Assembly (NCBI RefSeq): GCF_002259645.1
Contig: NZ_MWWV01000005.1
Coordinates: 1 to 64,000 of the forward strand
From: Bifidobacterium tissieri
GTDB lineage: Bacteria; Actinomycetota; Actinomycetes; Actinomycetales; Bifidobacteriaceae
Direction: 5' to 3'
DNA: 64,000 bases
The position numbers were made by a program, and so were the translations under genes. Below are positions 581-60,870 of the stretch, piece by piece. The first letter of the stretch is position 1. Every line of letters begins with the position of its first letter. The notes beneath the pieces were generated by a model. The model did no database searches, was not told the DNA's origin, and worked only from the letters and a program-made list of their open reading frames with translations.

Positions 581-623
581 CGTTGCAATTCCAACACCGC
601 TCTTTTTTAGTGTGATCACACTA
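581..623. repeat. Type B intergenic element, half copy (core + right arm)
   Basis: The core CGTTGCAATTCCAAC (581-595) is followed by one right arm, the 16-bp palindrome TAGTGTGATCACACTA (608-623). The left arm seen in the other type B copies (15822-15837 and 60791-60806) is missing; the IS-end repeats occupy its place. The simplest reading is that the insertion sequence removed or displaced the left arm. Confidence 0.6.
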
Positions 624-703
624 AGGGAGAGTGGTGTTCGGTATGCGGGCATATTTTGGGATGTGGGATGTGGTGTGCTGGTCGCCGTATGACTGTATGA
701 AAT

Positions 704-866
704 TGCGTCACGTGGGCCGAGGCGCGTCACGTGGGACGGGCGGCCCGTGTGACGATCGCTCAAAAACGTTGCAATTTCAACGTTCTTCATGACGGCTTAT
801 TTTGGGTGCCCGTCCCGTGTGACGTAACCCGGCCCGTGTGACGGTAAAACCCGGCCCGCGTGACGT
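704..866. repeat. Type A intergenic element 1
   Basis: The core CGTTGCAATTTCAACG (767-782) is flanked on the left by two GCGTCACGTGGG units and on the right by CCCGTGTGACG-type units pointing the other way. In this copy the units read GTCACGTGGGCC rather than the GTTACGTGGGCC of the other type A copies. It fills the space between the insertion sequence and the YhgE genes. The 866-1131 remainder shows no gene I can support; the promoter of the YhgE pair should be there. Confidence 0.7.
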
Positions 867-1131
867 CAGCTGCGGTGGTCCGCGTCGACCGACCCCGATC
901 CCACCCACAGAATCAACACCCGATGCCTAGTTGTCAAGAGAATCGGCGAATCATGCTGAGAGTCGAAATCAGGTCCACCTCGATCCGGCCTGTGGAATTA
1001 TACTGACTTTGGATTGGCGACTACGGGGCCGGCGACTGCTGGGCCGACCGCCCGCGCCGCCACACCCAATCATCGTCATCATCCGATGCGAACGGCAGAT
1101 GGCCGAAGCGACTGATGGTCGGAGGCGGTAG

Positions 1132-4023
1132 ATGCGCATGATCGGGCGGATTTTCACACGAGACGTTCTTCGACTCCTCAGAAATCCCGTCGCCATTGTC
1201 ATCACGCTCGGCGTTGCGCTCATCCCATCCCTGTACGCGTGGTTCAACATCGTCGCCAACTGGGACCCGTATTCGAACACCGGCAACATCCAGGTGGCCG
1301 TCGCGAATACGGATGCCGGCACCCACAACGATCTGGTCGGCAAACTCAACGCCGGCGAACAGGTCGAACAGCAGCTCAAGGCCAATCATGATCTCGGCTG
1401 GCGGTTCGTCAGCGAAACCCAGGCCAAGGCCGGCGTGGAATCCGGCGAATATTACGCCGCCATCGTGATCCCCAAGGATTTCAGCGCGCAACTCGTCAAC
1501 ACGATCGAAGGTTCCGGTCAGCCGAGGATCACCTATTACGTCAACGAAAAGAAAAACGCGATCGCCCCCAAGATCACCGACACCGGTGCCAGCACGATCG
1601 ACGAACAGGTCAACCAGACCTTCATCTCCACCGTCGCCACCACCGTGGTCAACGCGGTGAAACAAGCCGCCGCGAATACCAGCGACAAGGCCGGCGACAC
1701 TCGCACCGCAATCGACAATGACCTCGACCAAGCCTCCACCGACCTCGCCGACGCGCAGAAGGCGATGACCGACACCGCAGCAACCATCGACGCCTCCACC
1801 AAGGCGCTCGACGACGCCAACACCACACTCACCGCGCTGACCAACCAACTCACCAGCACCCAGACCGCCCTCGCCAACGCCAACACCGCACTCGGCGAAA
1901 CCCGCAAGGAATCACTCGGCTTCGCCAACACCCTCGACTCCACGCTCGGCACCGCCGCCGTCAACCTCAGCGGACTCGAGGTCTCGGCCAACAACGCGGC
2001 GGGCGGCATCAGCGGCGGGTTCACCACCGTGCAGACCACCATCGACCAGACGCTGAACGGCCAGGATTCCGCGCTCTCCCAAGGTCGACAAGCCATCTCG
2101 AACGTGCGGCAGACCGTCAACAACGCCAACCTCCCGGCCGCGCAGAAACAGAACATCCTCGACCAACTCGACAAGCTCGACAACCAGCTCGTCGACCAGC
2201 AGAATCAGGCCACCAACTTCCGCAACAGCGCATCCACCATTACCGGCTCCGGCATCACCGCCACCCAGAGCATGGCCAACGGCGTGACCACTCTCACCCA
2301 GAACGGCGTCGCCACGCTCACCGATACGCGCGGCAACCTCAACACCACCGTCATGCCATCGCTCCTCGCCGCCATGGACTCGTTCTCCGCGTCCACCGGC
2401 AGCATGGGCGGCACGCTCGGCGGACTCAACTCCACCATCGGCCAGACGCAAACCATCATCAAACAACTCAAATCCACACTCACCAGCACCAAATCCACGC
2501 TCGCCGACACCGGCAAATCCCTCAACGACGTCAAAACCGGCCTCGACACCACCCGCACCGATCTGGCCGCACTCGAAAGCTCCGACATCTGGCAGCAGCT
2601 CAACACCCGGCTCAACCTCAACGCCACCGAGGCCGGCGCGTTCATGGCCTCACCCGTCAACCTCGTCACCACCACCGTGTACCCCGTGGCCAACTACGGT
2701 TCGGCCGTCACCCCGTTCTATACGAACCTGGCGCTCTGGGTGGGCGGATTCGTGCTCATCGCCATCTACAAGCTCGAAGTCGATAAGGAAGGCCTGAACC
2801 ACGGCAAGCGCGTCAACGCCATGCAGGCCTACATCGGCCGCGGACTGCTGCTCGTCAGCGTGGGCCTCATGCAGGCGCTCATCGTCACCATCGGCGATCT
2901 GATCATCGGCATCCAATGCAAGAATCCGGTGGCGTTCGTGTTCTCCGGACTCGTGATCTCATTCGTCTACGTGAACGTGATCTACGCGCTCGCCGCATCG
3001 CTCAAGCACATCGGCAAGGCCGTGGCCGTGATCCTCGTGATCATTCAGATCCCCGGATCGTCGGGCATGTATCCGATCGAAATGATGCCCGACTTCTTCC
3101 GTAATCTCTATCCGTTCCTGCCGTTCACCTACGGCATCAACGCCATGCGCGAGACGATCGGCGGCGCATACGGCTCGCACTACTGGCACGATCTCGGTTC
3201 GCTGCTCTGGTTCCTCGCCGGCGCGCTGATGCTCGGACTCGTGGCCCGCCCGTACCTGCTCAACCTCAACGCGCTGTTCGACCGTCGCCTCGGCGCCACG
3301 GATCTGATGGTGGCCGAGAAGAACAACATGCTCAACGAACGGTTCAAGCTCACGTCGGTGATCAAACTGCTCATGGGCGTGGACGAGGTCCGTCCGCAGA
3401 TCCGCCGCCGCGCGCACCGCTTCTTCAAGCTGTATCCGCATCTGATCCGTGCGGGACTCGCGCTGATCATCGTGCTGCCGGCCCTGTTCCTGGTGCTGAT
3501 GTTCAGCGTGGAGTCGAAGATCGTGATGCTTACCGCGTGGATCACGTCGATCATCCTCATCGACATCTATCTGATCGTCGTGGAATACATGTATGAAAGC
3601 TTCGCGCGTCAGTTGGGCATCAGTGCGATGGACAGCGATGCGCTGCGCAAGGCGATGTCCCGTCGATTCCATATTCCGTTGCCGTCGTTGCCGATTCCGC
3701 CGATGCCGTCACTGCCGGATTTGGGTGGTCGACATCACGGCGCGCATACGGCCGGTGGTGCTGGTTCGGCTGGTGCTGGTTCGGCTGGTGCGGGTGCGCA
3801 CGCTGCCGGTGCGGGTTCGGGTGCGGATGATCCGGAGAACGACGATGTGTTCAAGGCACTGCGTGCCGCCCGGCAGGCCACGCCCGGCGAGCCGATCGAC
3901 GATGCGCATGACAGTGGTGTGCATGACAGTACGGCCGCATCGCATGGCAGCGGTCATGGCGGTGCAAACGGCACTTGCGACGGCAATGCGAACGGCACTC
4001 ACGACGGAAAGGAGACCCGCTGA
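1132..4023 (+). CDS. YhgE/Pip-family membrane protein with extended C-terminus
   Basis: A 963-aa integral membrane protein of the YhgE/Pip (phage infection protein) family. One N-terminal membrane helix (about residues 16-40, ending in the family motif YAWFNI..NWDPY) is followed by about 480 residues rich in Ala, Thr, Asp and Gln. That part is probably extracytoplasmic and looks like helical coiled repeats. A C-terminal ABC-2-like block of helices starts near residue 528 (ALWVGGFVLIAIYKL). Two further helices lie at about 770-790 and 797-822. A low-complexity Gly/Ala/Ser/His tail ends the protein. The start has GGAGG 11 bases upstream. The stop overlaps the next start by one base (TGATG). The Lactococcus homologue Pip is a phage receptor; the cellular role is not established, and envelope transport or integrity is inference. 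Confidence 0.88.
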   Translation: MRMIGRIFTRDVLRLLRNPVAIVITLGVALIPSLYAWFNIVANWDPYSNTGNIQVAVANTDAGTHNDLVGKLNAGEQVEQQLKANHDLGWRFVSETQAKAGVESGEYYAAIVIPKDFSAQLVNTIEGSGQPRITYYVNEKKNAIAPKITDTGASTIDEQVNQTFISTVATTVVNAVKQAAANTSDKAGDTRTAIDNDLDQASTDLADAQKAMTDTAATIDASTKALDDANTTLTALTNQLTSTQTALANANTALGETRKESLGFANTLDSTLGTAAVNLSGLEVSANNAAGGISGGFTTVQTTIDQTLNGQDSALSQGRQAISNVRQTVNNANLPAAQKQNILDQLDKLDNQLVDQQNQATNFRNSASTITGSGITATQSMANGVTTLTQNGVATLTDTRGNLNTTVMPSLLAAMDSFSASTGSMGGTLGGLNSTIGQTQTIIKQLKSTLTSTKSTLADTGKSLNDVKTGLDTTRTDLAALESSDIWQQLNTRLNLNATEAGAFMASPVNLVTTTVYPVANYGSAVTPFYTNLALWVGGFVLIAIYKLEVDKEGLNHGKRVNAMQAYIGRGLLLVSVGLMQALIVTIGDLIIGIQCKNPVAFVFSGLVISFVYVNVIYALAASLKHIGKAVAVILVIIQIPGSSGMYPIEMMPDFFRNLYPFLPFTYGINAMRETIGGAYGSHYWHDLGSLLWFLAGALMLGLVARPYLLNLNALFDRRLGATDLMVAEKNNMLNERFKLTSVIKLLMGVDEVRPQIRRRAHRFFKLYPHLIRAGLALIIVLPALFLVLMFSVESKIVMLTAWITSIILIDIYLIVVEYMYESFARQLGISAMDSDALRKAMSRRFHIPLPSLPIPPMPSLPDLGGRHHGAHTAGGAGSAGAGSAGAGAHAAGAGSGADDPENDDVFKALRAARQATPGEPIDDAHDSGVHDSTAASHGSGHGGANGTCDGNANGTHDGKETR

Positions 4024-6362
4024 TGCGCAACATCCTGCAGATCTTCATCCGTGACGTGCGCAACGCCGTCAGCAACGTGATCGGTGTGATCGTGACGATG
4101 GGTCTGGTGATCGTTCCATCGCTGTACGCATGGTTCAACATCGCCGCCAGCTGGGATCCGTACAGCAACACCGCCAGTCTGAAAGTTGCCGTCGCCAGCG
4201 CCGACAAGGGATACCAATCCGACCTCATTCCCGTGAAAATCAACGTGGGTGAGACCGTGATCTCCACGCTGCGCGCCAACCATCAGCTCGACTGGGTGTT
4301 CACCGACCCCGACAAGGCCGAGGACGGCGTGCGCTCCGGCGACTATTACGCGGCCATCGTGATTCCCGAAAGCTTCAGCGCCGACATGATGACCCTGTTC
4401 TCGCCCAAGGTGAAGCACGCGAAACTCAAGTACTACACGAACGAGAAGATCAACGCCATCGCGCCGCACGTCACCGACGAAGGTGCCGACACGATCACCA
4501 ATCAGATCGACAGCACCTTCGCCAAAACCATCGGACAGGTGGGACTCGACCTGGCCACCACGCTCGCCAAATACGCGCAAAGCGACCAGATGCAGAATTA
4601 TGTGGCCAACGCGACCGGGCACATCAACGCGATGGGCGACCAGCTCGCGTCCGCGTCCGCGCAGACCGCGTCGTATTCGAAACTGCTCGGCGCGACCGAG
4701 GGCATCATCGACTCCACGTCGAACCTGATCAACTCGTCCGGGAGTGCGGTCGCCGACGCGAAAAACGGACTGAATCAGGCGCAGGACGGCGTGAAATCGC
4801 TGGATGGCGCACTGTCCGGTGCGGCGAACACGTTGAGTGCGGCGCTCAGTCGCAGTGAGCAAAGCTACGATTCGGTGAGCGGTCAGATCGACACCGCATT
4901 CGACGCGATCGGCACGCAGTCGGACGAGGCGGGGAAGCAGCTGACCGATCTGTCCGGCAAGGTGTCCAGTGCGGCGGACGGATATCAGTCGCTGATCGAC
5001 GCGCTCAACGATATGAAGAACGCGACCGGTGGTTCGGGTGGTTCGGGTGGTTCGGGTGGTGCTGGTGGTGCGAACGGCGATGTGCAGACCGCGCTTGACG
5101 ACGCCATCACCGCCGTGACCAACGCGCAGAAGGCGCAGAAGGATCTCGCCGGACAGCTCTCCAACGCCGCCGGCACGATCAACGGCACCAGCGACGACGT
5201 CACCGCCAAACGCAACGATCTCAAGAACCAGATCGCCGATGCCAAGAAATCCGTCACCGACGTACGCAACACATACGACAGCGGACTCAAGCCGAAACTC
5301 GCCGCGCTCGCCGACTCCATCGACACCGTGAACTCGCAGACCCGCGGTGTGGCCGACGGCGTGAGCGCCACGGTGAATGATCTGAAGAACGTCTCCGGCA
5401 GCGCCAACACGTCGATCGCCGGCATTCGCAAGATCCTCGACAGTGCCACCCGGCGACTCGCCTCGGCGGGGGACAGCATGCACGAACTGGGCAAGCAGAT
5501 CGCGGGGATCGCAGGGAGTGGGGACGGAACTGGAACCGGTGATGCCGGCGCGAACGGCGCGAACGGTACGCAGTCCGACTCGAACGGGGACTTGTCCTCG
5601 TCCACGGATTCGTTGACGTCCGCGCAACTCGATCAGCTCGCCAATCTCGACCCCGACGCGCTCGCCACGCTGTTGTCGTCGCCGGTGAGCGTGAACCGCG
5701 TGGCCGTCTACCACATCGCCAACTACGGTTCGGCCATGGCGCCGTTCTACACGATCCTCGCCATCTGGGTGGGGTCGATCGTGCTCGTCGCCATGATGAA
5801 GGTGGCCATGAGCGATCGCGGGCGTAAGGAGGTGCTCGCCGCCACGGGCGCGCCGCGACTGCGTCTGCACCAGCAGTATTTCGGACGCTATCTGTTCTTC
5901 ATGCTGCTCGCGCTGCTGCAGGGTGCGCTGGTGGGACTTGGCGACCTGTATTATCTCGGTATCCAGAGCGAGCATCCACTGCAGTTCCTGCTCGTGTGCG
6001 AGGTGGCGGCGATCGTGTTCTCCAACATCACGTACACGCTGGCGCTGTCGTTCGGCGATATCGGCAAGGCGATCGCGGTGGTGCTGCTCGTGATGCAGGT
6101 GGCCGGTTCGGGTGGCACGTTCCCGATCGAAACGCTGCCGCCAGTGTTCCGCGCGCTCTACCCGTTCCTGCCGTTCCCGCACGGCATCGCGGCCATGCAT
6201 GCGGCCATGGCGGGCGCGTTCGGTGCGGAGTTCTGGCGTGAGACGGCGCTGTTGGCCGCGTTCATCGTGCCGTCGCTGCTGCTGGGACTGGTGCTGCGCA
6301 AGCCCGTGATCCGCCTCAACGACTGGATCATCCGCAACCTCGAAAGCACGAAACTCATGTAG
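4023..6362 (+). CDS. YhgE/Pip-family membrane protein, second paralogue
   Basis: A 779-aa paralogue of the preceding protein, translationally coupled to it by a one-base stop/start overlap. An earlier in-frame ATG exists, but the GGAAAGGAGA ribosome site 7 bases before 4023 and alignment with the family N-terminus fix this start. It has one N-terminal helix ending YAWFNIAASWDPY, an Ala/Gln/Asp-rich extracytoplasmic stretch, and a Gly/Ser linker encoded by a perfect GGTTCGGGT repeat (5032-5058). The C-terminal multi-helix block carries the paired family motif YGSAMAPFYTILAIWVG. It lacks the two extra helices and the tail of its partner. The tandem pair probably forms a hetero-oligomer; that is inference. 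The stop codon abuts a type A repeat array, with no separate terminator visible. Confidence 0.88.
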   Translation: MRNILQIFIRDVRNAVSNVIGVIVTMGLVIVPSLYAWFNIAASWDPYSNTASLKVAVASADKGYQSDLIPVKINVGETVISTLRANHQLDWVFTDPDKAEDGVRSGDYYAAIVIPESFSADMMTLFSPKVKHAKLKYYTNEKINAIAPHVTDEGADTITNQIDSTFAKTIGQVGLDLATTLAKYAQSDQMQNYVANATGHINAMGDQLASASAQTASYSKLLGATEGIIDSTSNLINSSGSAVADAKNGLNQAQDGVKSLDGALSGAANTLSAALSRSEQSYDSVSGQIDTAFDAIGTQSDEAGKQLTDLSGKVSSAADGYQSLIDALNDMKNATGGSGGSGGSGGAGGANGDVQTALDDAITAVTNAQKAQKDLAGQLSNAAGTINGTSDDVTAKRNDLKNQIADAKKSVTDVRNTYDSGLKPKLAALADSIDTVNSQTRGVADGVSATVNDLKNVSGSANTSIAGIRKILDSATRRLASAGDSMHELGKQIAGIAGSGDGTGTGDAGANGANGTQSDSNGDLSSSTDSLTSAQLDQLANLDPDALATLLSSPVSVNRVAVYHIANYGSAMAPFYTILAIWVGSIVLVAMMKVAMSDRGRKEVLAATGAPRLRLHQQYFGRYLFFMLLALLQGALVGLGDLYYLGIQSEHPLQFLLVCEVAAIVFSNITYTLALSFGDIGKAIAVVLLVMQVAGSGGTFPIETLPPVFRALYPFLPFPHGIAAMHAAMAGAFGAEFWRETALLAAFIVPSLLLGLVLRKPVIRLNDWIIRNLESTKLM

Positions 6363-6572
6363 GCGTCACGTGGGCCGGCTTGCCGGTTGCCGGTTGCGTT
6401 ACGTGGGCCGCGGTCACGTAACGTGGGCCGTGCGCGGCCCACGTAACAGTTGGTAAAAACGTTGCAATTCCAACGATTTGTTGATACGTTACGTGGGCCG
6501 TGCGCGGCCCGGCTAACGGCCCACGTAACGCACGCGGCCCACGTAACGCAACAACCCGGCCCGTGTGACGCA
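6363..6572. repeat. Type A intergenic element 2
   Basis: The core CGTTGCAATTCCAACG (6460-6475) has four GTTACGTGGGCCG-type units to the left, the last joined to its inverse as a hairpin (TAACGTGGGCCG, TGCG, CGGCCCACGTAA). On the right are another such hairpin and three inverted units. It lies exactly between two convergent genes and starts at the base after the YhgE stop codon, so its hairpins may also terminate transcription in both directions. Confidence 0.75.
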
Positions 6573-6592
6573 CTCACGCGTGCACCACGGCC

Positions 6593-7642
6593 TCACTCCT
6601 CCGTCAGCGGCGTATGCAGGAACTCAAGGATGCGCTTCACATACTGCTGCATGATCTCGTTGCGCTCGGTGGTCATTTCGTGACGCGACCCCACCAGCCG
6701 CACCAGCTGCACCGGGCACCCGCCGGCCCGCACCTGCGCCGCGAACTTGTTCTGCGGCTTGGGCAGCACGTACGTGTCATTCTCCGCTTGGAAGATCAGC
6801 AGCGGCGTCTCCACCTGCTCGCACGCCGACTGCCGCATGATCGACTTGTACATGCGCAGTCCCTCGCGCACCCAGCCGAACGTGGCCGCACTCGTGTGAT
6901 ATTCCGGATGCTTGAGCCGCAGATCGTGCACCCAGCGAGCGCGCGGCAGACTCAGCGTGCGGTAGAAGTCCTCGTCGAAGTCCTCGCTGAACGCCTTCTG
7001 CCCGGGTGCGGCGTGCTGTCCGAGTCCGATTGCGCAGGCGAGTTCCGCCACCGTGGGCGCGATCCAGAGCGGCATGCCGGATTTCAGTGCGATCATGGGC
7101 GCGCTGAGCACCGCCTTGTCGATGATCGTGGGATAGCGTTCCAACATTGCTGCCGCGATTCCTCCGCCCATGGAATGCCCATACAGGTAGATCGGCTGTC
7201 CAAGCGCGTAGTCCTGACCGATGGTGGAGCAGAACTTCGCGAGATCGTCCACGTATCGGTGCCAGTCGTCGATCCACACCAGGCTTTCGTTGTCCACGTC
7301 GCGTGGCGAGTATCCGTGACCGCGATGTTCGAGAATGCACACGCTGAACCCGTCGAGTAGCAGATACCAGGCGAGTTCCGCGAATCGTTCCGCGAATTCG
7401 GTGAATCCATGCGAGATTACGACCGCGCCGCGGAATGTCGCCGTGGCACCATTTTCCCGTATGGCGTCGAATTTGGCGGAGTCGTAGCACACGTAGTGTA
7501 GTTTGCCGGGCGTTGGTGCCGGAATGGTGTGGGCGCGCGACGGCTCCATCCATCCTTCCCTGCGGCATGCGGCCAGTGCGGGCAGCACGGTCCGGTCCAT
7601 GGTTTCGGCGTAATGACGGTCGTCGATCAACTGCACTTCCAT
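6593..7642 (-). CDS. Alpha/beta hydrolase, lysophospholipase/monoacylglycerol lipase-like
   Basis: A 349-aa serine hydrolase of the Hydrolase_4/lysophospholipase family. Visible are the oxyanion-side motif VISHGFTEFAERF, the strand ending in LEHRGHGYSPRD, and the nucleophile elbow GHSMGGG. The acid residue lies in QAENDTYVLP and the catalytic His in GSRHEMTTE near the C-terminus. The triad is therefore complete. There is no signal peptide, so it is probably cytoplasmic and acts on lipid esters; the substrate cannot be read from sequence. I chose the ATG at 7642 (MEVQLIDDRHY) because a weak purine stretch (GAAAG) precedes it; an upstream ATG at 7702 would add 20 residues but has no ribosome site. 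It shares a strand with the upstream TetR gene. Confidence 0.82.
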   Translation of the reverse strand: MEVQLIDDRHYAETMDRTVLPALAACRREGWMEPSRAHTIPAPTPGKLHYVCYDSAKFDAIRENGATATFRGAVVISHGFTEFAERFAELAWYLLLDGFSVCILEHRGHGYSPRDVDNESLVWIDDWHRYVDDLAKFCSTIGQDYALGQPIYLYGHSMGGGIAAAMLERYPTIIDKAVLSAPMIALKSGMPLWIAPTVAELACAIGLGQHAAPGQKAFSEDFDEDFYRTLSLPRARWVHDLRLKHPEYHTSAATFGWVREGLRMYKSIMRQSACEQVETPLLIFQAENDTYVLPKPQNKFAAQVRAGGCPVQLVRLVGSRHEMTTERNEIMQQYVKRILEFLHTPLTEE

Positions 7643-7702
7643 GCTTTCGAGCCTACCGTGGGGGCTGACATGCCGTCGGACTTTATCCATGAGTTGTTTC
7701 AT

Positions 7703-8042
7703 GGACGGGCGATCGGGAACCAGGTCCTTGTTTGTGGGGTTGTGCTGGGTCTTGGGTGCCGGAACCGTTTTCCCGTTTCCCGCTGGTAGGAAGTTGACAA
7801 GAATATGCGAAAGCCGGCATTTCAGTTCAACGGGAAGCGTTGCCGTGGTGTCCTGTATGCGGCGAACCCAGCCCTCTTATTCCTCTCATTTCAGCGGGAA
7901 TGCCGGATGATAGGATCGACATTCCCGTCGCACGTATCCGACTGCCCGATTGTCCGCACACCGGATTGTTCGTCGTCCCGCACGGCATGATGAAAGAGAA
8001 TCCTTGCAATATCGCCGAGACGAGACCGCACGGGAACGTCGC
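7703..8042. other. Gene-free spacer between TetR gene and hydrolase
   Basis: About 340 bases with no convincing gene. A short inverted pair (GGGAATG near 7898 and CATTCCC near 7920) could form a hairpin downstream of the TetR stop. Short frames here have no ribosome site and no recognisable sequence. Confidence 0.4.
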
Positions 8043-9537: not shown

Positions 9538-9735
9538 ATCTTCGAGTTCTGTGCGGATTGCGGGGGCTTGCAGACATCAATCTTCAAGTTCTGTGCGTCG
9601 AGAATGGGAAAACCTGAGTAGAGGCGTTGGAATTTCAAGACACATACTTCGTTTTCTCGCCGTTGTCCGCACAGAACTTGCAGATTGGTGTCCGCACAGG
9701 GGCTGAATCCGCACAGAACTCGAAGATTGGTGCCG
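9538..9735. repeat. Type C intergenic element 1
   Basis: The core CGTTGGAATTTCAAG (9625-9639) is flanked on the left by two units reading CTTCGAGTTCTGTGCG and CTTCAAGTTCTGTGCG. On the right are two units in the opposite orientation (CCGCACAGAACTTGCAGATT and CCGCACAGAACTCGAAGATT). The arrangement mirrors types A and B but with an unrelated arm sequence. It fills most of the spacer upstream of ftsY. Confidence 0.7.
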
Positions 9736-11244: not shown

Positions 11245-11290
11245 AACGTCCCGTTCACAGCGACACCAGTCCTTCGTGAACGGGACGTTT
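11245..11290 (+). terminator. Rho-independent terminator of ftsY
   Basis: The arms AACGTCCCGTTCAC and GTGAACGGGACGTT form a perfect 14-bp stem with an 18-base loop, followed by TGCATTTC. It lies 34 bases after the ftsY stop. Confidence 0.85.
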
Positions 11291-15785: not shown

Positions 15786-15820
15786 TACGTTGTGCGAGCC
15801 AGTTAGTGCGAGCCAATTCC

Positions 15821-15920
15821 TTAGTGTGATCACACTAAAAATGGAGGGTGTTGGAATTTCAACGTTTTGAAGCCATGCGCCGTTAGTGTGAGCTCACACT
15901 AACGGGTTGGAGGCTCACAC
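15821..15920. repeat. Type B intergenic element 2
   Basis: Left arm TAGTGTGATCACACTA (15822-15837), core GTTGGAATTTCAACG (15850-15864), right arm TTAGTGTGAGCTCACACTAA (15883-15902), then a half arm (GGCTCACACTA, 15912-15922). It lies between the convergent glnD and MATE genes. Confidence 0.7.
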
Positions 15921-15924
15921 TACC

Positions 15925-28100: not shown

Positions 28101-28266
28101 GCGTTACGTGGGCCGTCTCCATAACGTGGGCCGTTACGTGGGCCGTGCACGGCCCACGTAACACGCGTTGAAAACCGTTGATTTTTCAACGTTTTCGCGG
28201 TTTCTCCCGAAATGCTGCAACGGCCCACGTAACGGCCCACGTAACACAGCGCGGCCCACGTGACGG
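28101..28266. repeat. Type A intergenic element 3
   Basis: The left arm has three GTTACGTGGGCCG units, the third joined to its inverse as a hairpin around GCAC. The core is a variant, CGTTGATTTTTCAACG (28176-28191), preceded by a partial duplicate (GCGTTGAAAACC). The right arm has two abutting CGGCCCACGTAAC units and one CGGCCCACGTGACG. It lies between gatD and the phasin-like gene, both on the plus strand, so it is not confined to convergent gene ends. The 28267-28510 remainder probably carries the next promoter. Confidence 0.75.
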
Positions 28267-32334: not shown

Positions 32335-32529
32335 GTTACGTGGGCCGTGTCTTGTTACGTGGGCCGTTATCTGGGCCGTCGGCGGCCCACGTAACGCAGT
32401 CATATATCGTTGCAATTTCAACGTTTTTTGACCTTGTTACGTGGGCCGTTGACGGCCCGCGTAACGTAGCGCCGCGGCCCGCGTAACGGCCCACGTAATG
32501 CATACGGTCACGTTTGTGTAACGTGGGGC
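32335..32529. repeat. Type A intergenic element 4
   Basis: Left arm: CGTTACGTGGGCCGT, GTTACGTGGGCCGT, a degenerate TATCTGGGCCGT and an inverted CGGCCCACGTAACG. Core CGTTGCAATTTCAACG is at 32408-32423. Right arm: GTTACGTGGGCCGT plus three inverted CGGCCC(A/G)CGTAA units. An outlying GTAACGTGGGGCG follows at 32518. It separates the convergent HAD and GH31 genes. Confidence 0.75.
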
Positions 32530-36551: not shown

Positions 36552-36613
36552 GCGTTCGCGCGTCCGCTCCGGGTTCTGGTCTGGCATCCATTGACTTATA
36601 GGCCGAACACGAT

Positions 36614-36726
36614 CGTTGGAATTCCAACGCGCATACTTTGCATATCCGCTTCGGGGACTTCAGAACATGGAGATTGATGTCCGCAAGGGGGCCGAATCAC
36701 TGCAGAACTTGGAGATAGGTGTTCGA
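36614..36726. repeat. Type C intergenic element 3 (core + right arm)
   Basis: The core CGTTGGAATTCCAACG (36614-36629) is the only perfect 16-bp palindrome of the family. To its right are two units, TTCAGAACATGGAGATTGATG (from 36659, 20 of 21 bases shown by pattern) and TGCAGAACTTGGAGATAGG. No left arm is visible after the LacI stop. Confidence 0.65.
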
Positions 36727-38117: not shown

Positions 38118-38320
38118 TGTTACGTGGGCCGGGCTGTTGCGTCACACAGGCCGTGACATGCGTTACGTGGGCCGGGTTCCGTTACGTGGGCCGGGTTGCT
38201 CTTGTGACGCAGTTTAAAAAACGTTGCAATTTCAAGGTTTTGGCGTGTGCGTTACATAGGCCGGGCGGCCCACGTAACGACAGACGGCCCACGTTACGTA
38301 CAATCCGGCCCGCGTAACGC
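38118..38320. repeat. Type A intergenic element 5
   Basis: Left arm: GTTACGTGGGCCGGG, a degenerate GCGTCACACAGGCCG, CGTTACGTGGGCCGGG and CGTTACGTGGGCCGGG. Core CGTTGCAATTTCAAG is at 38222-38236. Right arm: GTTACATAGGCCGGG fused to CGGCCCACGTAACG, then CGGCCCACGTTACG and CCGGCCCGCGTAACG. It lies between two genes on the minus strand, upstream of DedA and downstream of the NrtR-like gene. Confidence 0.75.
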
Positions 38321-53520: not shown

Positions 53521-53574
53521 TTCGCGTCGATTGAACGAGACGACGTTACAGCCGGAAGAAAAAGGAGCCACACA

Positions 53575-54645
53575 ATGGTACAGATCAATGACAAAGGCGT
53601 GAACGTAGCGGTGCTGGGTGCCACCGGACAGGTGGGCATGGTCATGCGTCGCATTCTCGACGAGCGCAACTTCCCGGTGAAGGATCTGCGTTTCCTCGCG
53701 TCCGCGCATTCCGCCGGAACCGTGCTCAACTGGCGCGGTCACGACATCATCGTGGAGGATGTGGCCAAGGCCGATCTTTCCGGCATCGACATCGCCATCT
53801 TCTCCGCCGGCGGTGGCACCTCCAAGGTGTGGGCGCCCAAGTTCGCCGAGGCCGGCGCCTACGTGATCGACAACTCCTCCCAGTGGCGTATGCACGACAA
53901 CGTGCCGCTGGTCGTGGCCGAGGTGAACCCCGAGGATCTGGACGACGTTCCGGACCGCATCATCGCCAACCCGAACTGCACGACCATGGCATGCATGCCG
54001 GCCATGAAGGCGCTGTCCGACGAGTTCGGTCTCAAGCGTCTGATCGTCAGCTCCTACCAGGCCGTGTCCGGTGCCGGTCGTGCCGGCGTGCTGCAGCTCA
54101 TGAACGAGGCCAAGGCCGCCGTGGAGCAGGGTGCCGACAAGCTGGTGTTCGACGGTTCCGCCATCGACTTCCCCGAGCCGACCAAGGTGGTGCGCACCAT
54201 CGCCTTTAACGCCGTGCCGTTCATCGGCGCGATCGTGGACGACGGCAGCGAGGAGACCGACGAGGAGCAGAAGCTGCGCAACGAGAGCCGCAAGATCCTG
54301 CACCTGCCGGACCTGAAGGCCAGCTGCACCTGCGTGCGCATCGGCGTGTTCACCTCGCACGGCATGAGCGTCAACGCCGAGTTCGAGAAGGACGTGACCC
54401 CGGATCAGGCCCGTGAGGTGCTGGCCAAGGCCCCGGGCGTGGAGCTCAACGACATCCCCACCCCGCAGCTCGCCGCCGGCAAGGACCCGAGCTTCGTGGG
54501 CCGCATCCGTCAGGATCAGGCCGTGGACGGCAAGAAGGGCCTGTCCATGTTCATCACGAACGACAACCTTCGTAAGGGTGCCGCACTCAACGCCATCGAA
54601 CTTGCGGAGATCGTGGCGAAGAAGCACTTCGCCGATCAGCTCTGA
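53575..54645 (+). CDS. asd: Aspartate-semialdehyde dehydrogenase
   Basis: A 356-aa NADPH enzyme that reduces aspartyl phosphate to the semialdehyde, the second step of the pathway. N-terminal NADP fold VAVLGATGQVGMVMRRIL; active-site Cys135 in IIANPNCTTMACMPA; substrate part SYQAVSGAGRAG; C-terminal SHGMSVNAEFEK. AAAGGAG lies 8 bases upstream. It ends the lysC-ACT-asd operon before a strong terminator. Confidence 0.97.
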   Translation: MVQINDKGVNVAVLGATGQVGMVMRRILDERNFPVKDLRFLASAHSAGTVLNWRGHDIIVEDVAKADLSGIDIAIFSAGGGTSKVWAPKFAEAGAYVIDNSSQWRMHDNVPLVVAEVNPEDLDDVPDRIIANPNCTTMACMPAMKALSDEFGLKRLIVSSYQAVSGAGRAGVLQLMNEAKAAVEQGADKLVFDGSAIDFPEPTKVVRTIAFNAVPFIGAIVDDGSEETDEEQKLRNESRKILHLPDLKASCTCVRIGVFTSHGMSVNAEFEKDVTPDQAREVLAKAPGVELNDIPTPQLAAGKDPSFVGRIRQDQAVDGKKGLSMFITNDNLRKGAALNAIELAEIVAKKHFADQL

Positions 54646-54680
54646 TCTCTGGCCAACGCCGGCAGCCACCGGATTGGCAT

Positions 54681-54730
54681 ATCGGCTCCCCGTTGCGCGA
54701 TTGCACAGATTGCGTAACGGGGAGCCGATC
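54681..54730 (+). terminator. Terminator of the lysC-asd operon
   Basis: CGGCTCCCCGTTGCGC pairs with GCGTAACGGGGAGCCG (one mismatch) across a 13-base loop. It is followed by GTTTGTGTTGTTTGTGTTG, a T-rich run made of tandem TTTGTGTTG units. Confidence 0.88.
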
Positions 54731-54895
54731 GTTTGTGTTGTTTGTGTTGTTTGTGTCCTCGTTGGTTCGCGTCTGTTCGGAATCGGTTTCCGCTCGTCTG
54801 GGATGACGTCGAGATCGGTCCGGGTCGCCCGCAACATCATCCCGCAACAGGCCGGCCGACGTTGCGGATGTCTGCCCGGCTGAGATACTGGGGAT

Positions 54896-55522
54896 ATGTC
54901 TGAAGCATCCGTGGAAGCGCAAAAGCAGCTCGACCGAATCGTGGCGCTGGGATACCCCGACGTGGCCGATATGACGGCCGCCGCATTCCGTGCACTCGCC
55001 ACGCCGATCATCAACGCCCTGGCCAAATCCGATCTGGGCGCCAACATTCTTCTTGTCCCCACGCGCGAACTCGTGTCTCCGGAATCGCTGATCGCGCGAA
55101 CCAGCATCAATCGCATGGCCGGATTCACCACCATGCCGCCGCGCGACATCGCCAGTTTCCTGCCGCAGGACGGCTTCGAGCCGCCGGAAGGCCCGTTCTA
55201 CATCGTCGTGGACCCGCACACCGGCACCCGATACACGAATCGTGAGCCCGACATCGCGCGCAAGCTCGTCGAATCCGACGGCCGGCTGCCGTTGACGCTG
55301 GAGGAGGGCCTCGCCATCGCCACCCAGCATCCCGATTGGCTGGTGCACAAGAACGGATTCAACCTGCTCGGATCGCGTAGCGCCGACGGCCGTGTGCCCA
55401 GCATATGGATGAGCCAGAACGCGCCGCGACTGGGTGCCGTATGGCCCACCAGCAAGCACACGTGGCTGGGCAACGCCTACTGCATGGGTCGTCGAGGCGT
55501 GTCGCTGTTCCACTACCTGTAA
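54896..55522 (+). CDS. DUF5701-like conserved protein
   Basis: A 208-aa soluble protein. Segments such as LLVPTRELVSPESLI, GPFYIVVDPHTGTRYTNREPD and the C-terminal GNAYCMGRRGVS are patterned as in a conserved actinobacterial family that I believe is DUF5701. No catalytic motif is recognised. It could bind a ligand or act as a small regulator; function unknown. It ends in front of a bidirectional hairpin. Confidence 0.7.
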   Translation: MSEASVEAQKQLDRIVALGYPDVADMTAAAFRALATPIINALAKSDLGANILLVPTRELVSPESLIARTSINRMAGFTTMPPRDIASFLPQDGFEPPEGPFYIVVDPHTGTRYTNREPDIARKLVESDGRLPLTLEEGLAIATQHPDWLVHKNGFNLLGSRSADGRVPSIWMSQNAPRLGAVWPTSKHTWLGNAYCMGRRGVSLFHYL

Positions 55523-55568
55523 GTCCACTACCTGTAAGTGATGTGCTGTCTGCCGTTTTCGACAAATG

Positions 55569-55620
55569 AAACGCCGTGTCTTCATATGGAGTCATAAGAG
55601 TCATATGAGGACACGGCGTT
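55569..55620. terminator. Bidirectional hairpin between convergent genes
   Basis: AACGCCGTGTC (55569-55580) pairs with GACACGGCGTT (55610-55620). A second smaller pair, TTCATATG/CATATGAG, lies inside. It separates the DUF5701-like gene from the minus-strand membrane gene. Confidence 0.75.
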
Positions 55621-55707
55621 CGATGTTGAGGGTGGGGAGCGGAATCGTTGGCGGGAGCCTCCGCCCGTGACGTTCGATGTTCAGACCATGATGTCTGACA
55701 CCGCCGA

Positions 55708-56667
55708 TCAGGCCTTCGGTGCTCCCGTCGCGCCCGGTGCACGCGTCTTCGGTGTGCGTCCGTTGCCGTTCCTGCGTCGCATGGCGGCGGCGACGCCGCC
55801 GATCACGAGCGTGACGCCCATGACCACCAGCGCGACGATTGCGAAGATCGTCCACATGCTCAACGACATGGAGAATCCGAACAGCCAGCTGCCGCCGAGC
55901 CCGCCGAGCGCGAACAGTGCGATCAGCGCGCCCCAGATGATCGTGGGCGTGCTTGGGCCCTTACGATATTCGATGCGCGGCGGATACTGCTGGCCGATGT
56001 TCGGCGCGTACTGGTTCCAGCCCGGATAGTTCTGATACTGCGGGCCCGCCGTGGCCTGCGCGGTGTTGCCGGAACCGGGGTAGTTGTTGCGTTGAGCCTC
56101 GTTCGCGTAGCCCTGCGCGGCGGCCTGTTGCTGGCTCCACGCGGCCTGCTGCGGATTCATCGGCTGCTCCGGCGACGCGGACCATGCCTGTTCCGGGCTC
56201 GGTGCGGGTGTGGGCGTTGGGTTCGGCATGGGTGCCGGCGTGGGGAACGGTGTTGGAGAAGCGGGGGCGGCGGGCGCGGTTGCAGGGCCTTCGGCAGCCG
56301 GCAGCGGTTCCTCGGACACCGACGACGGCGTGGTCTCCGGCGAGAACGGGCCCGGCTGCTCGTATTCCGTTCCGGCAAGCGTCACGTCGGGCTTGCCGAC
56401 GATCGGCTGCGTCGGCAGCGTGTCGGCGGTATCGCCATTGCCGTCAGTCGTGCTGGCGATCGGCGTTGCGCCCACCGGCGGCATGGTCTCCGTCGGTGCG
56501 TTCTGCGCCTTGATGCGATCAGGGTCGAGCGTCTGCGTGGGTGCCTCGCTGGCTGAATCGCCGACCGTGCCGGTGCCGTTGACCGTGGCATTGCCATCAG
56601 CCGTGCCGTTGCCGCCGACCGGCATCACCGTTGTCTTCTGATCATTCTGCGGATCGATGGTGGTCAT
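55708..56667 (-). CDS. Proline-rich membrane protein, function unknown
   Basis: A 319-aa protein. The first about 230 residues are low-complexity (Thr/Pro/Ala/Gln/Asn) without motifs. Two membrane helices follow (GALIALFALGGLGGSWLFGF and MWTIFAIVALVVMGVTLVIGG), then a basic tail (AAMRRRNGNGRTPKTRAPG). AAGGAG precedes the ATG. The next gene upstream on the same strand is the PspC-domain protein (70 bases), whose N-terminal part is similarly Asn/Pro-rich, so the two may form an operon linked to envelope stress. No signal peptide. Confidence 0.75.
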   Translation of the reverse strand: MTTIDPQNDQKTTVMPVGGNGTADGNATVNGTGTVGDSASEAPTQTLDPDRIKAQNAPTETMPPVGATPIASTTDGNGDTADTLPTQPIVGKPDVTLAGTEYEQPGPFSPETTPSSVSEEPLPAAEGPATAPAAPASPTPFPTPAPMPNPTPTPAPSPEQAWSASPEQPMNPQQAAWSQQQAAAQGYANEAQRNNYPGSGNTAQATAGPQYQNYPGWNQYAPNIGQQYPPRIEYRKGPSTPTIIWGALIALFALGGLGGSWLFGFSMSLSMWTIFAIVALVVMGVTLVIGGVAAAMRRRNGNGRTPKTRAPGATGAPKA

Positions 56668-56737
56668 GATGTCTCCTTAAAAAATCTCGTCGTCGAAACT
56701 ATTGATGACTGCGTGTGTGATGATTGTGCGCAACGGC

Positions 56738-58135
56738 TCAGTCGTCGTATCCGTTGAAACGACCATCGGACGTGCCGACGGAGATGTTGGAAAAGGCCGA
56801 GTCTCCGGTGAGCACAAGCGCGTTATCGTGATCGGCGTCTTCCCACGTCTTCAGTGCGCCGTAGTTGATGGTGGAACTGAACGTGTTGTCGACGTTCGAC
56901 ACGACCTGGCACCCGGCGGGCAGTTCGATCTCAAGGTCAGAGAAGGCCATGTCAAGGCCCAGATCGCCGGTGGGGCAGTTGGACCCGGGATGGGTGCTGC
57001 TCCAGTCGGTCAGGTCGAGCTCGACGGACGAGAACGCGATATCCAGTCCGGTGCTCTGCAACGTGTCGAGATCACCGGAATAGTAGGTGCGGTCGGAGAA
57101 CGTCACTTCGGTGCCGTAGGTCGATCCGGCCACATAGTTCGCGCCGGGCAGGGCGACGTACGCGCACATCGAGGCGATCAGTGCCACGATCGTCAGCGGA
57201 ATCAGGCCTCCGGACTTGCGGCCGGTGAAACCGACGACGATCGTGATCAGGCCGAGCAGGAACGTGACCGCCAGAATCCAGAGGGACACCATCGTGATCA
57301 CGTTCGGCAGTTCGAAGCGGCGGACGAACGCCATCAGCGCGATGAGGCCGGCCAGCGACAGCAGGATCAGGCCGGAGACGACGCCCACCACCACCGGGCC
57401 GGCGGGCTTGCGGCGGTAGATCACATTGGGCTGTGCGGGTTGCGGCGCGGTGTTGTAGTACGGGGCCGGGCCGGGCTGCGGCGTGAACGGCTGCTGCGGC
57501 ATCGGACCGTAGTTCGCGCCCGGCGTGCTGGGGTTCGGATTCGGCGTGGGCATCGCAGGGCCTCCCATCGGAGTCGGGTTCGTTGAGTTGGTCGGGTTGC
57601 CGGGGTCGGTCGCGCCGCCACCGAATCCTCCGAAATCGGGGCCGGGACCGGCGTCGGGATTCGGCTGACTGCCTCCGGGGTTCTTGTTCTGGTCGCGGTT
57701 GTACAGCAGGATCGCGGCGACGATCAGCGCCACGAACAGCGGGATCGAAATGAACGGCACGGCGAACACACTGCCGGGGCAGCCGACGAGCATGAACAGG
57801 ATCGACATCCAGAACGGCGCGGGGAACCGGCCGTTGATCAGCGCGTCCTCGGCGATGATCGTGCCGTCACGCTCGTCGGGGAGCAGAAACCATGCCAGAC
57901 CGTAGAGCAGTGCGCCGAATCCGGCCGCGCAGAAGAACGCGAACCAGATGATGCGGATGATCAGCGGATCCCAGCCGAGACGGTTGGCGATCGCGCCGGA
58001 TACACCACCCACCCAGCGGTTGGTGCTGCGACGGAGCCCGAGCGAACGGACCCAGTTGAAGAACCGGCTGCCCGCCGGAGGGTTCGGATTCGGATTGGCG
58101 TACTGGTTCGGATTGAATGGATTGCTTGACGTCAT
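56738..58135 (-). CDS. PspC-domain (LiaF-like) membrane protein
   Basis: A 465-aa protein. An Asn/Pro-rich start is followed by a PspC domain (about residues 25-95: RSLGLRRSTNRWVGGVSGAIA and FFCAAGFGALLYGLAWFLLPDE), then more helices. A Pro/Gly/Asn-rich linker leads to a second helix block. The C-terminal beta-rich part has repeated acidic turns (FSDRTYYSGDLDTLQSTGLD, VELDLTDWS, MAFSDLEIELPAG), like the LiaF/DUF4097-type sensor domain. The ATG at 58135 has AGGGAG 9 bases upstream. It is divergent from a histidine kinase/response regulator pair, the arrangement seen in LiaFSR-like envelope-stress systems. Confidence 0.88.
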   Translation of the reverse strand: MTSSNPFNPNQYANPNPNPPAGSRFFNWVRSLGLRRSTNRWVGGVSGAIANRLGWDPLIIRIIWFAFFCAAGFGALLYGLAWFLLPDERDGTIIAEDALINGRFPAPFWMSILFMLVGCPGSVFAVPFISIPLFVALIVAAILLYNRDQNKNPGGSQPNPDAGPGPDFGGFGGGATDPGNPTNSTNPTPMGGPAMPTPNPNPSTPGANYGPMPQQPFTPQPGPAPYYNTAPQPAQPNVIYRRKPAGPVVVGVVSGLILLSLAGLIALMAFVRRFELPNVITMVSLWILAVTFLLGLITIVVGFTGRKSGGLIPLTIVALIASMCAYVALPGANYVAGSTYGTEVTFSDRTYYSGDLDTLQSTGLDIAFSSVELDLTDWSSTHPGSNCPTGDLGLDMAFSDLEIELPAGCQVVSNVDNTFSSTINYGALKTWEDADHDNALVLTGDSAFSNISVGTSDGRFNGYDD

Positions 58136-58412
58136 GATGCTCATCTCCCTGAGGATCCCAGAGGATCGTTCGCTCGTGATTCCTTGTTGATTCCATTCCA
58201 CCGCAGAATCGTGTCGACCGCTATGGGGGAACACCCTGAAAGAACCCTGAACCATGGGGGACGCACCCCGAATCCCCCATATCACCCCGAACGGCATTGC
58301 TACGCTGGAGTGCAGGATAACCGCGACGACACCGATCGTCGTTCCTGAATCATGACGACTCGTGATGATCATGACGGTGATCCGCAACTGAAGATATGCA
58401 AGGGGGATGTGA

Positions 58413-59723
58413 ATGAACGGTCAGCATGGCATACCGCCGACGCAGCCGCCGACGGATCGGCAGGATCCCAGGCCATCACAGACCCCGCCAACCCCTCCGG
58501 TATTCGATTCACCGTTGCGCCGCACCACGCTGAGTTCGCTCGTCGACGCCGCCAGCCGTGCGGCCAACGCCACCCGACCGGTCCGGCCGGCCACCATCGG
58601 TGTGGTCATCGCGTTGATCGGCGTACTCGCCGTCGGACTGGGCGTCTGGGGGATCCTCTCCGGGCTGCCCATACAGATCGTGCTCGGCCTCGCCCTGGTA
58701 TTCGTCGGCGTGGCCGTCGGATGGGCACAGATGAGCTTCATCATGGACGACCGGCTCCACCCCGAAGTCCACACCGGCAGATTCGCCGTCGTCGTGACCG
58801 CGGGCAGCATCGCCGTCACCATCGCCGGTGTCCTCGTCATGTTCAGCCTGACCATGCAATTGGGAACGCTGCTCAAAGGCGCGCTCGCAGGACTCGTCAT
58901 GATCGCGGCGCTCGCCGTCATCATCGCCCCCTGGTGGATCAGCCTGATCGCCGATCTAGGTAAACAACGGGCGCAGACCGCCCGCGAGGAGCTCCGCGCC
59001 GACATCGCCGCACGACTGCATGACTCCGTGCTGCAGACGCTCGCCCTGATCCAACTGCAATCGTCGGATTCCGCCAAGGTGGCGGCGCTCGCCCGCGCAC
59101 AGGAACGTGAACTGCGCGAATGGCTGTACGGCGATCCGGAATCCACCGCGGCATCCGCGGCAGCGGCGTCTTCGGGTGCGGGACCCGCTGGTATGAGCGC
59201 TGCGGCAATGGCATCCGGGGCGGGATTTCCTAGTACCTCGCCGATCCCTCAACGGCCGGCATTCCCGTCGGCATCGTCTACGAACGCGTCCGTGACCGCG
59301 TCTATCCCGGCCGCATCCATGCGCAATGCCGCCGCTCCGGAACCGTTCTCCCGCGTACTCAAACGCGTCGTCGCCAATGTGGAGGACTCGTGCGAGCGCC
59401 CGATCGATGTGGTGACTGTCGGCGAATGCGCGACGGTGCAGGAATTATCGTCGTTGCTCGATGCCGCCGCCGAGGCCATGACCAACGCGGCCCGGCATGG
59501 CGCTCCGCCGATCTCCGTCTATATGGAGGCGAACGATGTCAAAGTACAGGTGTTCGTGCGCGATCACGGGGACGGTTTCGACGTGAACGCATTGCCGGCC
59601 GGGCACCTTGGGGTCAAGGAGTCGATCATCGGCCGCATGCGGCGGTCTGGGGGCACGGCCGAGATCGTCTCGCGGCCCGGTTGGGGTACGGAGGTCCGTC
59701 TTTCCCAGCCGTTGCAGCGGTAA
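58413..59723 (+). CDS. LiaS/NarL-type sensor histidine kinase
   Basis: A 436-aa sensor kinase. Four membrane helices lie between about residues 62 and 178 with very short outer loops, so it senses within the membrane. The HisKA_3 dimer domain has the phospho-acceptor His203 in AARLHDSVLQTLALIQ. A Ala/Ser-rich insert (about 245-300) separates it from the ATPase domain, with N-box EAMTNAARHG, G1-type VRDHGDGFD and G2-type GLxESIxGR (here GVKESIIGRMR) elements. It lies divergent from the PspC gene and 72 bases before its response regulator. Probably an envelope-stress sensor. Confidence 0.92.
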   Translation: MNGQHGIPPTQPPTDRQDPRPSQTPPTPPVFDSPLRRTTLSSLVDAASRAANATRPVRPATIGVVIALIGVLAVGLGVWGILSGLPIQIVLGLALVFVGVAVGWAQMSFIMDDRLHPEVHTGRFAVVVTAGSIAVTIAGVLVMFSLTMQLGTLLKGALAGLVMIAALAVIIAPWWISLIADLGKQRAQTAREELRADIAARLHDSVLQTLALIQLQSSDSAKVAALARAQERELREWLYGDPESTAASAAAASSGAGPAGMSAAAMASGAGFPSTSPIPQRPAFPSASSTNASVTASIPAASMRNAAAPEPFSRVLKRVVANVEDSCERPIDVVTVGECATVQELSSLLDAAAEAMTNAARHGAPPISVYMEANDVKVQVFVRDHGDGFDVNALPAGHLGVKESIIGRMRRSGGTAEIVSRPGWGTEVRLSQPLQR

Positions 59724-59795
59724 GGAAACGTGACGCGGTCCGGCGGCGCAGTAAGGTGAGGAATGATGTCGAGGAACGACAAGGAGGAACGGGGA

Positions 59796-60638
59796 ATGAC
59801 GCAGTCAATGGGGACGGATGCGGCACAGTCAAGTCGGTTGGCACAGTCGGATCAGTCGGCGCCCAAGACGACCGCAATCCAGTCGGATACGGCAGTCAAA
59901 CGATCCGTGCGCATCGGCGTGGTTGATGATCATGATCTGTTTCGTGCGGGGGTGATCGCGGCCATCACCGCCGGCTCCGACGACATTGAGATCGTCGGAC
60001 AGGCGGGGGACGTGCAGTCGTCGGTCCGTATGATCGCCGAAACCCGTCCTGACGTGGTGCTGCTCGACGTGCATGTGCCCGGCGGCGAGGGCGGCGGCGG
60101 ATCCGAGATCATTCTGCGTAGCATGCCGTACGCGCCGCATACCCTGTATCTGGCACTGTCCGTGTCCGATTCGCCGACCGACGTGGGCGCGGTGATCCGT
60201 GCCGGCGCCCGCGGCTATGTGACCAAGACGATCACCGCGCCGGACCTCATCGCGTCGATTCATCAGGTGGCGGAGGGCTATGCGGTGTTCAGTCCGAAGC
60301 TGGCCGGATTCGTGCTCAATGCGCTTGGTCCGGGCAGTCCGCAGGGCGGTGTTCAGGGTGCCACGCCCGACCCGAGCGCCGACTACAACCCTTACGCACA
60401 GCCGACGCCGACTGCGGCACCGGTGCCGGACGACGACATCGATATCGACGTGCTCAGCCCGCGCGAACAGGAGGTCATGCGGCTCATCGCCCGCGGCTAC
60501 TCCTACAAGGAGGTGGCCGCCGAACTGTTCATCTCGGTCAAGACCGTGGAAACGCACGTCTCCAAGGTCTTGCGGAAGCTGCAGCTCTCCAACCGCGGCG
60601 AACTCGCCCGCTGGGCCGCCTATCGTCGCATCGTCTGA
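59796..60638 (+). CDS. NarL/LuxR-type response regulator
   Basis: A 280-aa DNA-binding response regulator. The receiver domain starts at about residue 38 (RIGVVDDHDLFRAGV) with phospho-acceptor Asp91 in VVLLDVHVPGGEG and the switch Lys in YVTKTITAPDL. A linker rich in Pro and Gln follows. The C-terminal LuxR HTH reads LSPREQEVMRLIARGYSYKEVA and ISVKTVETHVSKVLRKL. The ATG at 59796 is preceded by GGAACGGGG; an ATG at 59763 is possible. It is the partner of the histidine kinase. Confidence 0.93.
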   Translation: MTQSMGTDAAQSSRLAQSDQSAPKTTAIQSDTAVKRSVRIGVVDDHDLFRAGVIAAITAGSDDIEIVGQAGDVQSSVRMIAETRPDVVLLDVHVPGGEGGGGSEIILRSMPYAPHTLYLALSVSDSPTDVGAVIRAGARGYVTKTITAPDLIASIHQVAEGYAVFSPKLAGFVLNALGPGSPQGGVQGATPDPSADYNPYAQPTPTAAPVPDDDIDIDVLSPREQEVMRLIARGYSYKEVAAELFISVKTVETHVSKVLRKLQLSNRGELARWAAYRRIV

Positions 60639-60790
60639 TGCGGCACCGGTGGTCAGCGGCCAGTGTCAGTGGTCAATGAGCAGTGGTCAGTGGCCACTAA
60701 GCAATGGCCAATGAGCAACTGAAACGTTCCATAAGCAACTGAACAGCCGAAAAGTGAGATAGACCACCAAAAATGAGACCGCTCCCTCTG
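60639..60790. repeat. CAGTGGTCA-type short repeats after the response regulator
   Basis: Diverged tandem copies of CAGTGGTCA(G/A)T(G/G)(G/A) and ATGAGCA(A/G) run from about 60650 to 60740. No T-run terminator is seen. The remaining spacer to 60968 carries type B element 3 and the leuA promoter region. Confidence 0.5.
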
Positions 60791-60870
60791 TAGTGTGATC
60801 ACACTAAAAAATGCGGGTGTTGGAATTTCAACGTTTGGGGGGCATTGGTCACGATAGTGTGATCACACTA
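60791..60870. repeat. Type B intergenic element 3
   Basis: A complete copy: left arm TAGTGTGATCACACTA (60791-60806), core GTTGGAATTTCAACG (60819-60833), right arm TAGTGTGATCACACTA (60855-60870). Arms are identical to each other and to those at 608-623 and 15822-15837. It lies 100 bases before the leuA start, so it could affect leuA transcription. Confidence 0.75.

Follow-up and report, generated by a model that had tools for sequence, protein, structure and literature searches.

Ten intergenic elements in a 64-kb stretch of the Bifidobacterium tissieri genome (hereafter, the window) share a 16-bp palindromic core, CGTTGSAATTYCAACG, and most of these cores lie at the center of inverted repeats whose arms belong to one of three classes (A, B or C). 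The preliminary description of a constant core with exchangeable arms extends to orthologous sites, with two cases in which different species carry different arms at the same site. The explanation that we tentatively prefer is that the elements are composite DNA-binding sites, serving as operators or boundaries, with replaceable arm-binding factors.

The core palindrome is multi-copy, intergenic and concentrated in one family

At up to 3 mismatches, CGTTGSAATTYCAACG produced 21 strand-hits in the window, whereas 100 dinucleotide shuffles averaged 1.92 (sd 1.60) and never exceeded 7. All ten places named in the preliminary description were recovered among these hits, eight at the same coordinate and two displaced by one base (15850 became 15849 and 60819 became 60818), and an additional weak match was observed at 11286 on one strand only. 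Three cores are variants of CGTTGSAATTYCAACG, with one change at 38222, two at 9625 and three at 28176. In the complete set of 38 contigs (2.87 Mb), 43 + 27 strand-hits were obtained at up to 1 mismatch and none for the reversed pattern. A gene caller of simple codon-usage type, trained on the window itself, placed all ten window cores (10/10) outside genes. The claim that the core never occurs in genes has one exception among 62 cores examined (L044, which is armless and falls within a predicted gene), with 18 of the 62 lying too close to a locus end to be placed.

The exact core CGTTGNAATTNCAACG is present in multiple copies in eight of nine genomes of the genus (8-24 places apiece) and occurs in 87 of 189 genomes of the family (5 of 16 genera). 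Outside the family, 5 of 395 actinomycetotal genomes carry it, once each. An alternative core, CGGCGNAATTNCGCCG, was found in 15 of the 189 genomes, several times within inverted repeats, and is possibly a drifted core; with only 1-2 copies per genome, it was rejected as a multi-copy family. CGGCGGAATTCCGCCG (L304-L316), observed in 15/189 genomes and at the center of inverted repeats in some, was noted as a possible drifted core.

Viral contigs contained 31 stretches with AACGTTGNAATTNCAACGTT, whereas four control palindromes gave 0, 2 (both in one contig), 7 and 4. The excess is smaller than it appears because some stretches nearly duplicate one another and the GC content of three is 0.60-0.61, like Bifidobacterium. 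The viral stretches are mostly of low GC, and some have their own repeats around the core when inspected by eye (e.g., L265, L266, L277 and L278). Two or three cores spaced 42-505 bp apart were observed in the viral contigs L263, L266, L268 and L284. A plasmid search with one A element gave a single 25-bp match (E 0.6), and a phage search with a core dimer gave four records (E about 0.9). Literature searches with 14-mers of the core, covering part of its variants, returned no paper; matches to core and arm pieces were to short pieces only, in papers unrelated by title, and searches on Bifidobacterium intergenic repeats found nothing relevant.

Elements of the window

The arm sequences in the window match the earlier description of classes A, B and C. 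With the exception of the right half element at 581, which is on the forward strand, the elements are given here without strand. Five are A elements, located at 707..864 (GTCAC sub-type; core 767-782, A arms at 707, 726 and 741 on the left and at 811, 830 and 852 on the right), 6365..6569 (between convergent genes; core 6460-6475, A arms spanning 6365 to 6569), 28103..28264 (core 28176-28191, variant CGTTGATTTTTCAACG), 32335..32499 (between convergent genes; core 32408-32423, with differently armed orthologues in L213 and L242) and 38119..38318 (variant core 38222-38237, A arms spanning 38119 to 38318). B elements were found at 15802..15924, between convergent genes (core 15849-15864, B palindromes 15821-15838 and 15883-15902), and at 60790..60871 (core 60818-60833, flanked on each side by B palindromes). 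A C element lies upstream of ftsY at 9538..9729, with C arms in inverted orientation on both sides of the variant core 9625-9640. That each core centers inverted repeats holds for most, the exceptions being 36605..36719 (core 36614-36629), which has C-like arms on the right side only and is 171 bp away from a tRNA-Ala(cgc) gene, and the right half of a B element at 581..624 (core 581-596, B palindrome 607-624). At gathering score, Rfam families detected nothing in the window except a tRNA.

The element at 581 is armed only on the right because other, IS-like DNA abuts the left side of its core. The neighboring predicted gene (3-461) contains HTH domains, and the DNA to the left of 581 was read, from its sequence, as an IS. 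Two half B elements exist, one at 581 (start of contig 34) and one in L042 (end of contig 36); both have a core of their own, with other DNA abutting it. As L215 and L258 match both contig ends (36 end and 34 start) across one intergenic region, the two halves are probably one B element that was split by an insertion.

Arms are of one class per element and hold a fixed geometry

When the 63 cores in the examined loci of B. tissieri (at up to 2 mismatches from CGTTGNAATTNCAACG) were classified using a strict arm motif, 18 had A arms on both sides, 18 had B arms, 6 had C arms, 2 had B arms on one side and 19 had none, the last group including 36614. In all 42 two-sided elements the arm type was identical on both sides, with no mixed arms (0/42). 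The geometry is characteristic of each class: A arm pairs are centered 35.5 bp from the core center; B palindromes are located ~27 and ~36 bp out, in either order; and, relative to the core start, C units begin at about -80, -39, +42 and +84 bp. A core-spanning inverted pair of 10 bp or more was found for 88 of 205 cores, compared to 7.95 when flanks were re-paired and 3.75 when shuffled; these cores (up to 1 mismatch) came from B. tissieri, relatives and viral contigs, with loci mostly chosen for holding a core. In A elements, A and T tracts (AAAA/TTT) are conserved beside the core, and in many C-type elements GTATG..CATAC flanks the core in place of these tracts. A helical phasing of arms relative to the core was considered and rejected, as the pooled peak near 10.5-11 bp (R 0.35) was lost with one pair per arm family. 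Two closely similar A elements lie 1391 bp apart at L016 1501 and 2892 (C38 96685 and 98076) with an extra A arm between them.

The description of three unrelated arm units is adequate locally, but A-like arms drift between species and cores of the genus are surrounded by further arm classes (GTGACCGGGTGCA, AAGTCCAGCACG, GATGGACTGCGTTGCAT, CGAGTTGTGGGTGTTTG and GTTCCGTGCCA, some of which were read by eye). The unit GTNACGTGGNNCG produced 89 strand-hits in B. tissieri (reversed control 3) compared to 0-16 in eight relatives (reversed control 2-8). Of 59 exact A arms, 55 are part of a core-bearing element, three lie in a core-less cluster (L051) and one lies elsewhere (L054). An early notion that arms never occur without a core holds to this extent for A and fails for B: among the matches listed, 19 B loci were chosen where no core had been recorded, of which 15 indeed have B palindromes without a core and 4 have one, in one instance with an inserted base. 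These 15 coreless loci (of L356-L374), with many copies of TTAGTGTGATCACACTAA-type palindromes, are spread over contigs C1, C6, C12, C15, C23, C34, C36 and C37 of G000. Across ten C clusters the geometry is kept in all, and the core center has 2-4 changes in six (9625 and five others), contradicting the idea that the core is always near exact. With coreless B palindromes and altered C cores, the core is shared among the classes yet neither obligate nor exact for B or C.

Orthologous sites carry different arms in related species

The site at 32408 has A arms in B. tissieri, GTGACCGGG arms in L213 (presumably B. pluvialisilvae; both flanks match) and GCCTCACATGGGCCG arms in B. simiarum (L242, where one flank matches), and all of these arm forms may have drifted from one ancestor. 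At the site of the 581 and 767 elements (end of contig 36 and start of contig 34), B. tissieri carries a B and an A element, B. callimiconis (L123) a C element, and L215 and L258 (B. primatium) GATGGACTGCGTTGCAT arms; matches are present on both sides in L123, L215 and L258, and the arms are of different classes. In a third, weaker case, A arms occur in L008 and GGAATG/CCGTG-type arms in L059 (B. saimiriisciurei), both of which lie between the same gene and a tRNA-Thr gene, at differing distances. The case was downgraded because L064 (GTGACCGGG-type), although near that gene too, is located beyond the tRNA genes.

Among 26 other-species cores with a flank matching examined B. tissieri DNA, 13 have a B. 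tissieri core within 600 bp, compared to 11.3% expected (p 1.3e-6 if the cores are independent); the true significance is lower, given repeated loci (7 distinct near, 8 not), one match to a short tRNA piece and one core ~300 bp off. Three window elements are absent from B. callimiconis at the compared sites, where inspection by eye revealed no clean empty site, the intergenic DNA having been replaced. At the 6460 locus, L126 and L146 hold only a GTCACGCAGGCCG-like remnant (by eye). Another repeat (CTCCCCTC..GAGGGGAGCTGTC..GACTGAGGGGAG) was seen by eye in L123, L126 and L127 at sites where B. tissieri has core elements.

In A elements the core and arms are conserved and the spacers free

Alignment of 18 A elements at the core gave an information content of 0.6-2 bits for core positions, up to 2 bits for the adjoining A/T tracts, 0.1-2 bits for the arms (blurred by one-base shifts) and 0-0.6 bit for the arm-core spacers, a profile that is uncorrected, comes from a small sample and covers A elements rather than B or C. 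Copies made by transposition would share their spacers, so the lack of common spacers among A elements speaks against copied transposons. By a loose count, A arms differed by 2.59 changes within and 2.61 changes between elements, i.e., there was no difference. By a strict count (up to 2 changes), the values were 1.08 within and 1.23 between elements, which was matched by 1 of 500 permutations. This excess is due to four elements of the GTCAC sub-type, without which the values were 1.07 and 1.00, with 274 of 300 permutations as low. The proposition that arm copies are not homogenized within elements was accordingly narrowed. Furthermore, arm copies that could pair within an element (opposite orientation) differed by 1.09 changes compared to 1.07 for those that could not, giving no sign of selection for pairing. 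The free spacers and the equal likeness of pairable and unpairable arms favor protein sites over hairpins or copied transposons.

Gene context

For the 36 armed elements with both neighboring genes called, 11 lie between convergent, 21 between tandem and 4 between divergent genes, compared to 25, 105 and 39, respectively, for all intergenic regions that measure 120 bp or more in this DNA. The enrichment between convergent genes is weak (11/36 vs 25/169, p 0.03; divergent, p 0.12). A, B and C elements lie a median of 109, 110.5 and 266 bp, respectively, from the closest gene 3' end and 336, 286 and 244 bp from the closest gene start; C elements are therefore not closer to 3' ends (266 vs 244 bp). 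Several cores adjoin tRNA genes, and the core in L018 forms the apex of a hairpin directly behind one.

Armless cores include some near tRNA genes and, in several genomes, some among repeats that resemble DnaA boxes. In seven genomes of the genus (G000, G001, G002 (one change each), G004, G005, G006 and G008), an armless pair of cores 87 bp apart lies between a sulfite reductase gene and a FAD-dependent reductase gene, as identified by Pfam (L069 5123 and 5210; also L295, L296, L300, L301, L302 and L303), with both cores between divergent genes; at this locus, three genomes from a second genus (L297, L298 and L299) have degenerate sites. Another armless core, which is kept in B. callimiconis (L231), lies upstream of an aldehyde dehydrogenase-domain gene that we read from its sequence as a putative adhE. 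A GntR-type regulator is encoded beside one core (L067).

A possible composite operator or boundary element

Of the readings offered in the preliminary description, a binding site read together with arm-specific proteins fits best, with the arm proteins remaining putative. A modular mobile element is weakened by the unshared A spacers and by the failure to find an element end or target duplication, and a transcription or chromosome boundary gains a little from the proximity of A and B elements to gene 3' ends and the mild convergent enrichment. For the composite site that we prefer, we infer a core factor, arm factors and a function. The core would be bound by a conserved dimeric protein and the arms by a second DNA-binding protein, drawn from several that evolve fast or can be replaced, with both forming a mirror-symmetric complex; once a lineage has acquired a new arm protein, or its arm protein a new specificity, the arms would be rebuilt around the retained core. 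Candidates for the core protein, by resemblance, may include a redox regulator, a MarR-like protein or a Noc-like protein. With a median of about 110 bp separating A and B elements from gene 3' ends, they would most likely serve as a roadblock or insulator of transcription or in local chromosome organization. Armless cores in promoter-like places (e.g., the 87-bp pair) hint at an additional role for the core factor as a conventional regulator. The coreless B palindromes (15/19 loci among the matches listed) count against the composite reading, as arms and core are not obligate partners. The six of ten C clusters with altered cores also weigh against it, and the A/T tracts would suit a terminator as well.

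Bidirectional intrinsic terminators, in which the core and A/T tracts would form the tip of a hairpin and the arms an extra stem, are an unlikely alternative that would suit the conserved AAAA/TTT beside the core of A elements, the L018 hairpin behind a tRNA gene, the ~110 bp between A and B elements and gene 3' ends, and the strong folding of whole A elements as single strands. However, many C-type elements carry GTATG..CATAC and no A/T tracts, 32-nt core hairpins are weak (medians of -3.8 to -6.8 kcal/mol), pairable arms are not more alike than unpairable ones, and the two cores at the sulfite reductase locus lie between divergent genes; free hairpins also need not retain one 16-bp sequence across a family. 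The fixed geometry with free spacers and the sites shared between species similarly make it quite improbable that this is a functionless repeat family kept similar by gene conversion, even though the elements are intergenic, their arm copies are lineage-biased and a slight likeness exists within elements.

Non-autonomous, MITE-like repeats with arms as recognition ends, whose enzyme has been lost or is unlinked, are consistent with the abundance of GTNACGTGGNNCG solely in B. tissieri (89 vs 0-16 strand-hits), the three window elements missing from B. callimiconis at the compared sites, the cores with surrounding repeats in viral contigs and the small within-element likeness of A copies. Yet A spacers are not common to copies, outer ends are not constant, the number of arms varies, no target duplication was seen, the core is kept at orthologous sites while the arms differ, and the B. 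tissieri genome has no Y1 transposase (the sole transposase family searched), leaving this explanation also unlikely. Still more doubtful are attachment-type sites for a tyrosine recombinase, in which crossover would take place in the core and integrase would bind the arms, on the model of phage attP or the mobile integrase cassettes of B. longum. The inverted CGTTG half-sites around a 6-bp center and the cores beside tRNA genes agree with this, and B. longum cassettes also combine a palindrome with an inverted repeat (PMC2430713), but the cassette palindrome has a different sequence, dozens of sites are present per genome, the arms are symmetric, and no three of the nine PF00589 matches in the B. 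tissieri genome are adjacent.

A broader form of the composite-site reading, which we consider doubtful, is a bacterial boundary element in which one conserved core protein works with any of several arm proteins, and the arm code is swapped in place genome-wide as a lineage alters or exchanges its arm protein, leaving orthologous sites with the old core and a new arm language. Related core-and-arm arrangements in viral contigs of low-GC hosts would suggest that this logic is not confined to bifidobacteria. If the composite-site reading is right, the elements would constitute a natural experiment in the co-evolution of DNA-binding proteins and their sites, where sister species share a core and its partners are rewritten, as well as a genome-wide architectural or regulatory system of important gut bacteria for which no description was found, and the arms could be used as bait to fish out the proteins directly.

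Comparison with known repeat and operator systems

REP, BIME and REPIN sequences are likewise intergenic palindromic repeats with tens of copies and inverted pairs. REPINs have conserved ends and a variable center, which is the reverse of the present elements: in REP/REPIN the hairpin ends are conserved and the spacer varies, whereas here the center is conserved and the arms vary by element and species. A REP/RAYT system was rejected, as Y1_Tnp is present in one of nine genus genomes, which is not B. tissieri and is without the exact core. A elements do not show the whole-length likeness and fixed terminal inverted repeats of MITEs, their spacers carrying 0-0.6 bit and their arm number varying. 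Noc sites and matS are short palindromes scattered over the chromosome, like the present core; their sequence differs from it, and they are not known to be flanked by exchangeable arms.

Within bifidobacteria, the mobile integrase cassette (MIC) of B. longum combines a palindrome of 20 bp with an inverted repeat of 96 bp and carries three integrases, with 4 and 3 copies in the two genomes compared (PMC2430713); in our own reading of its printed sequence, the 96-bp inverted repeat holds repeats of a short unit. A palindrome with an inverted repeat is common to the core elements and MIC/RIT (PMC2430713, PMC3414803), but MIC/RIT was rejected as their identity because the sequences differ and the nine PF00589 matches include no adjacent integrase trio. 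AraQ/MalR1 (LacI-type) operators of Bifidobacterium are of the form TGTGAGC-GCTCACA with a central CG and are located in promoter regions (PMC6882875), unlike B palindromes (TGTGATCACA or TGTGAGCTCACA), which have no central CG and more closely spaced half-sites. Nevertheless, the pyk operator of B. breve, CAGTGTGAGC><GCTCACAACA, contains the B half-site AGTGTGAGC (PMC6882875).
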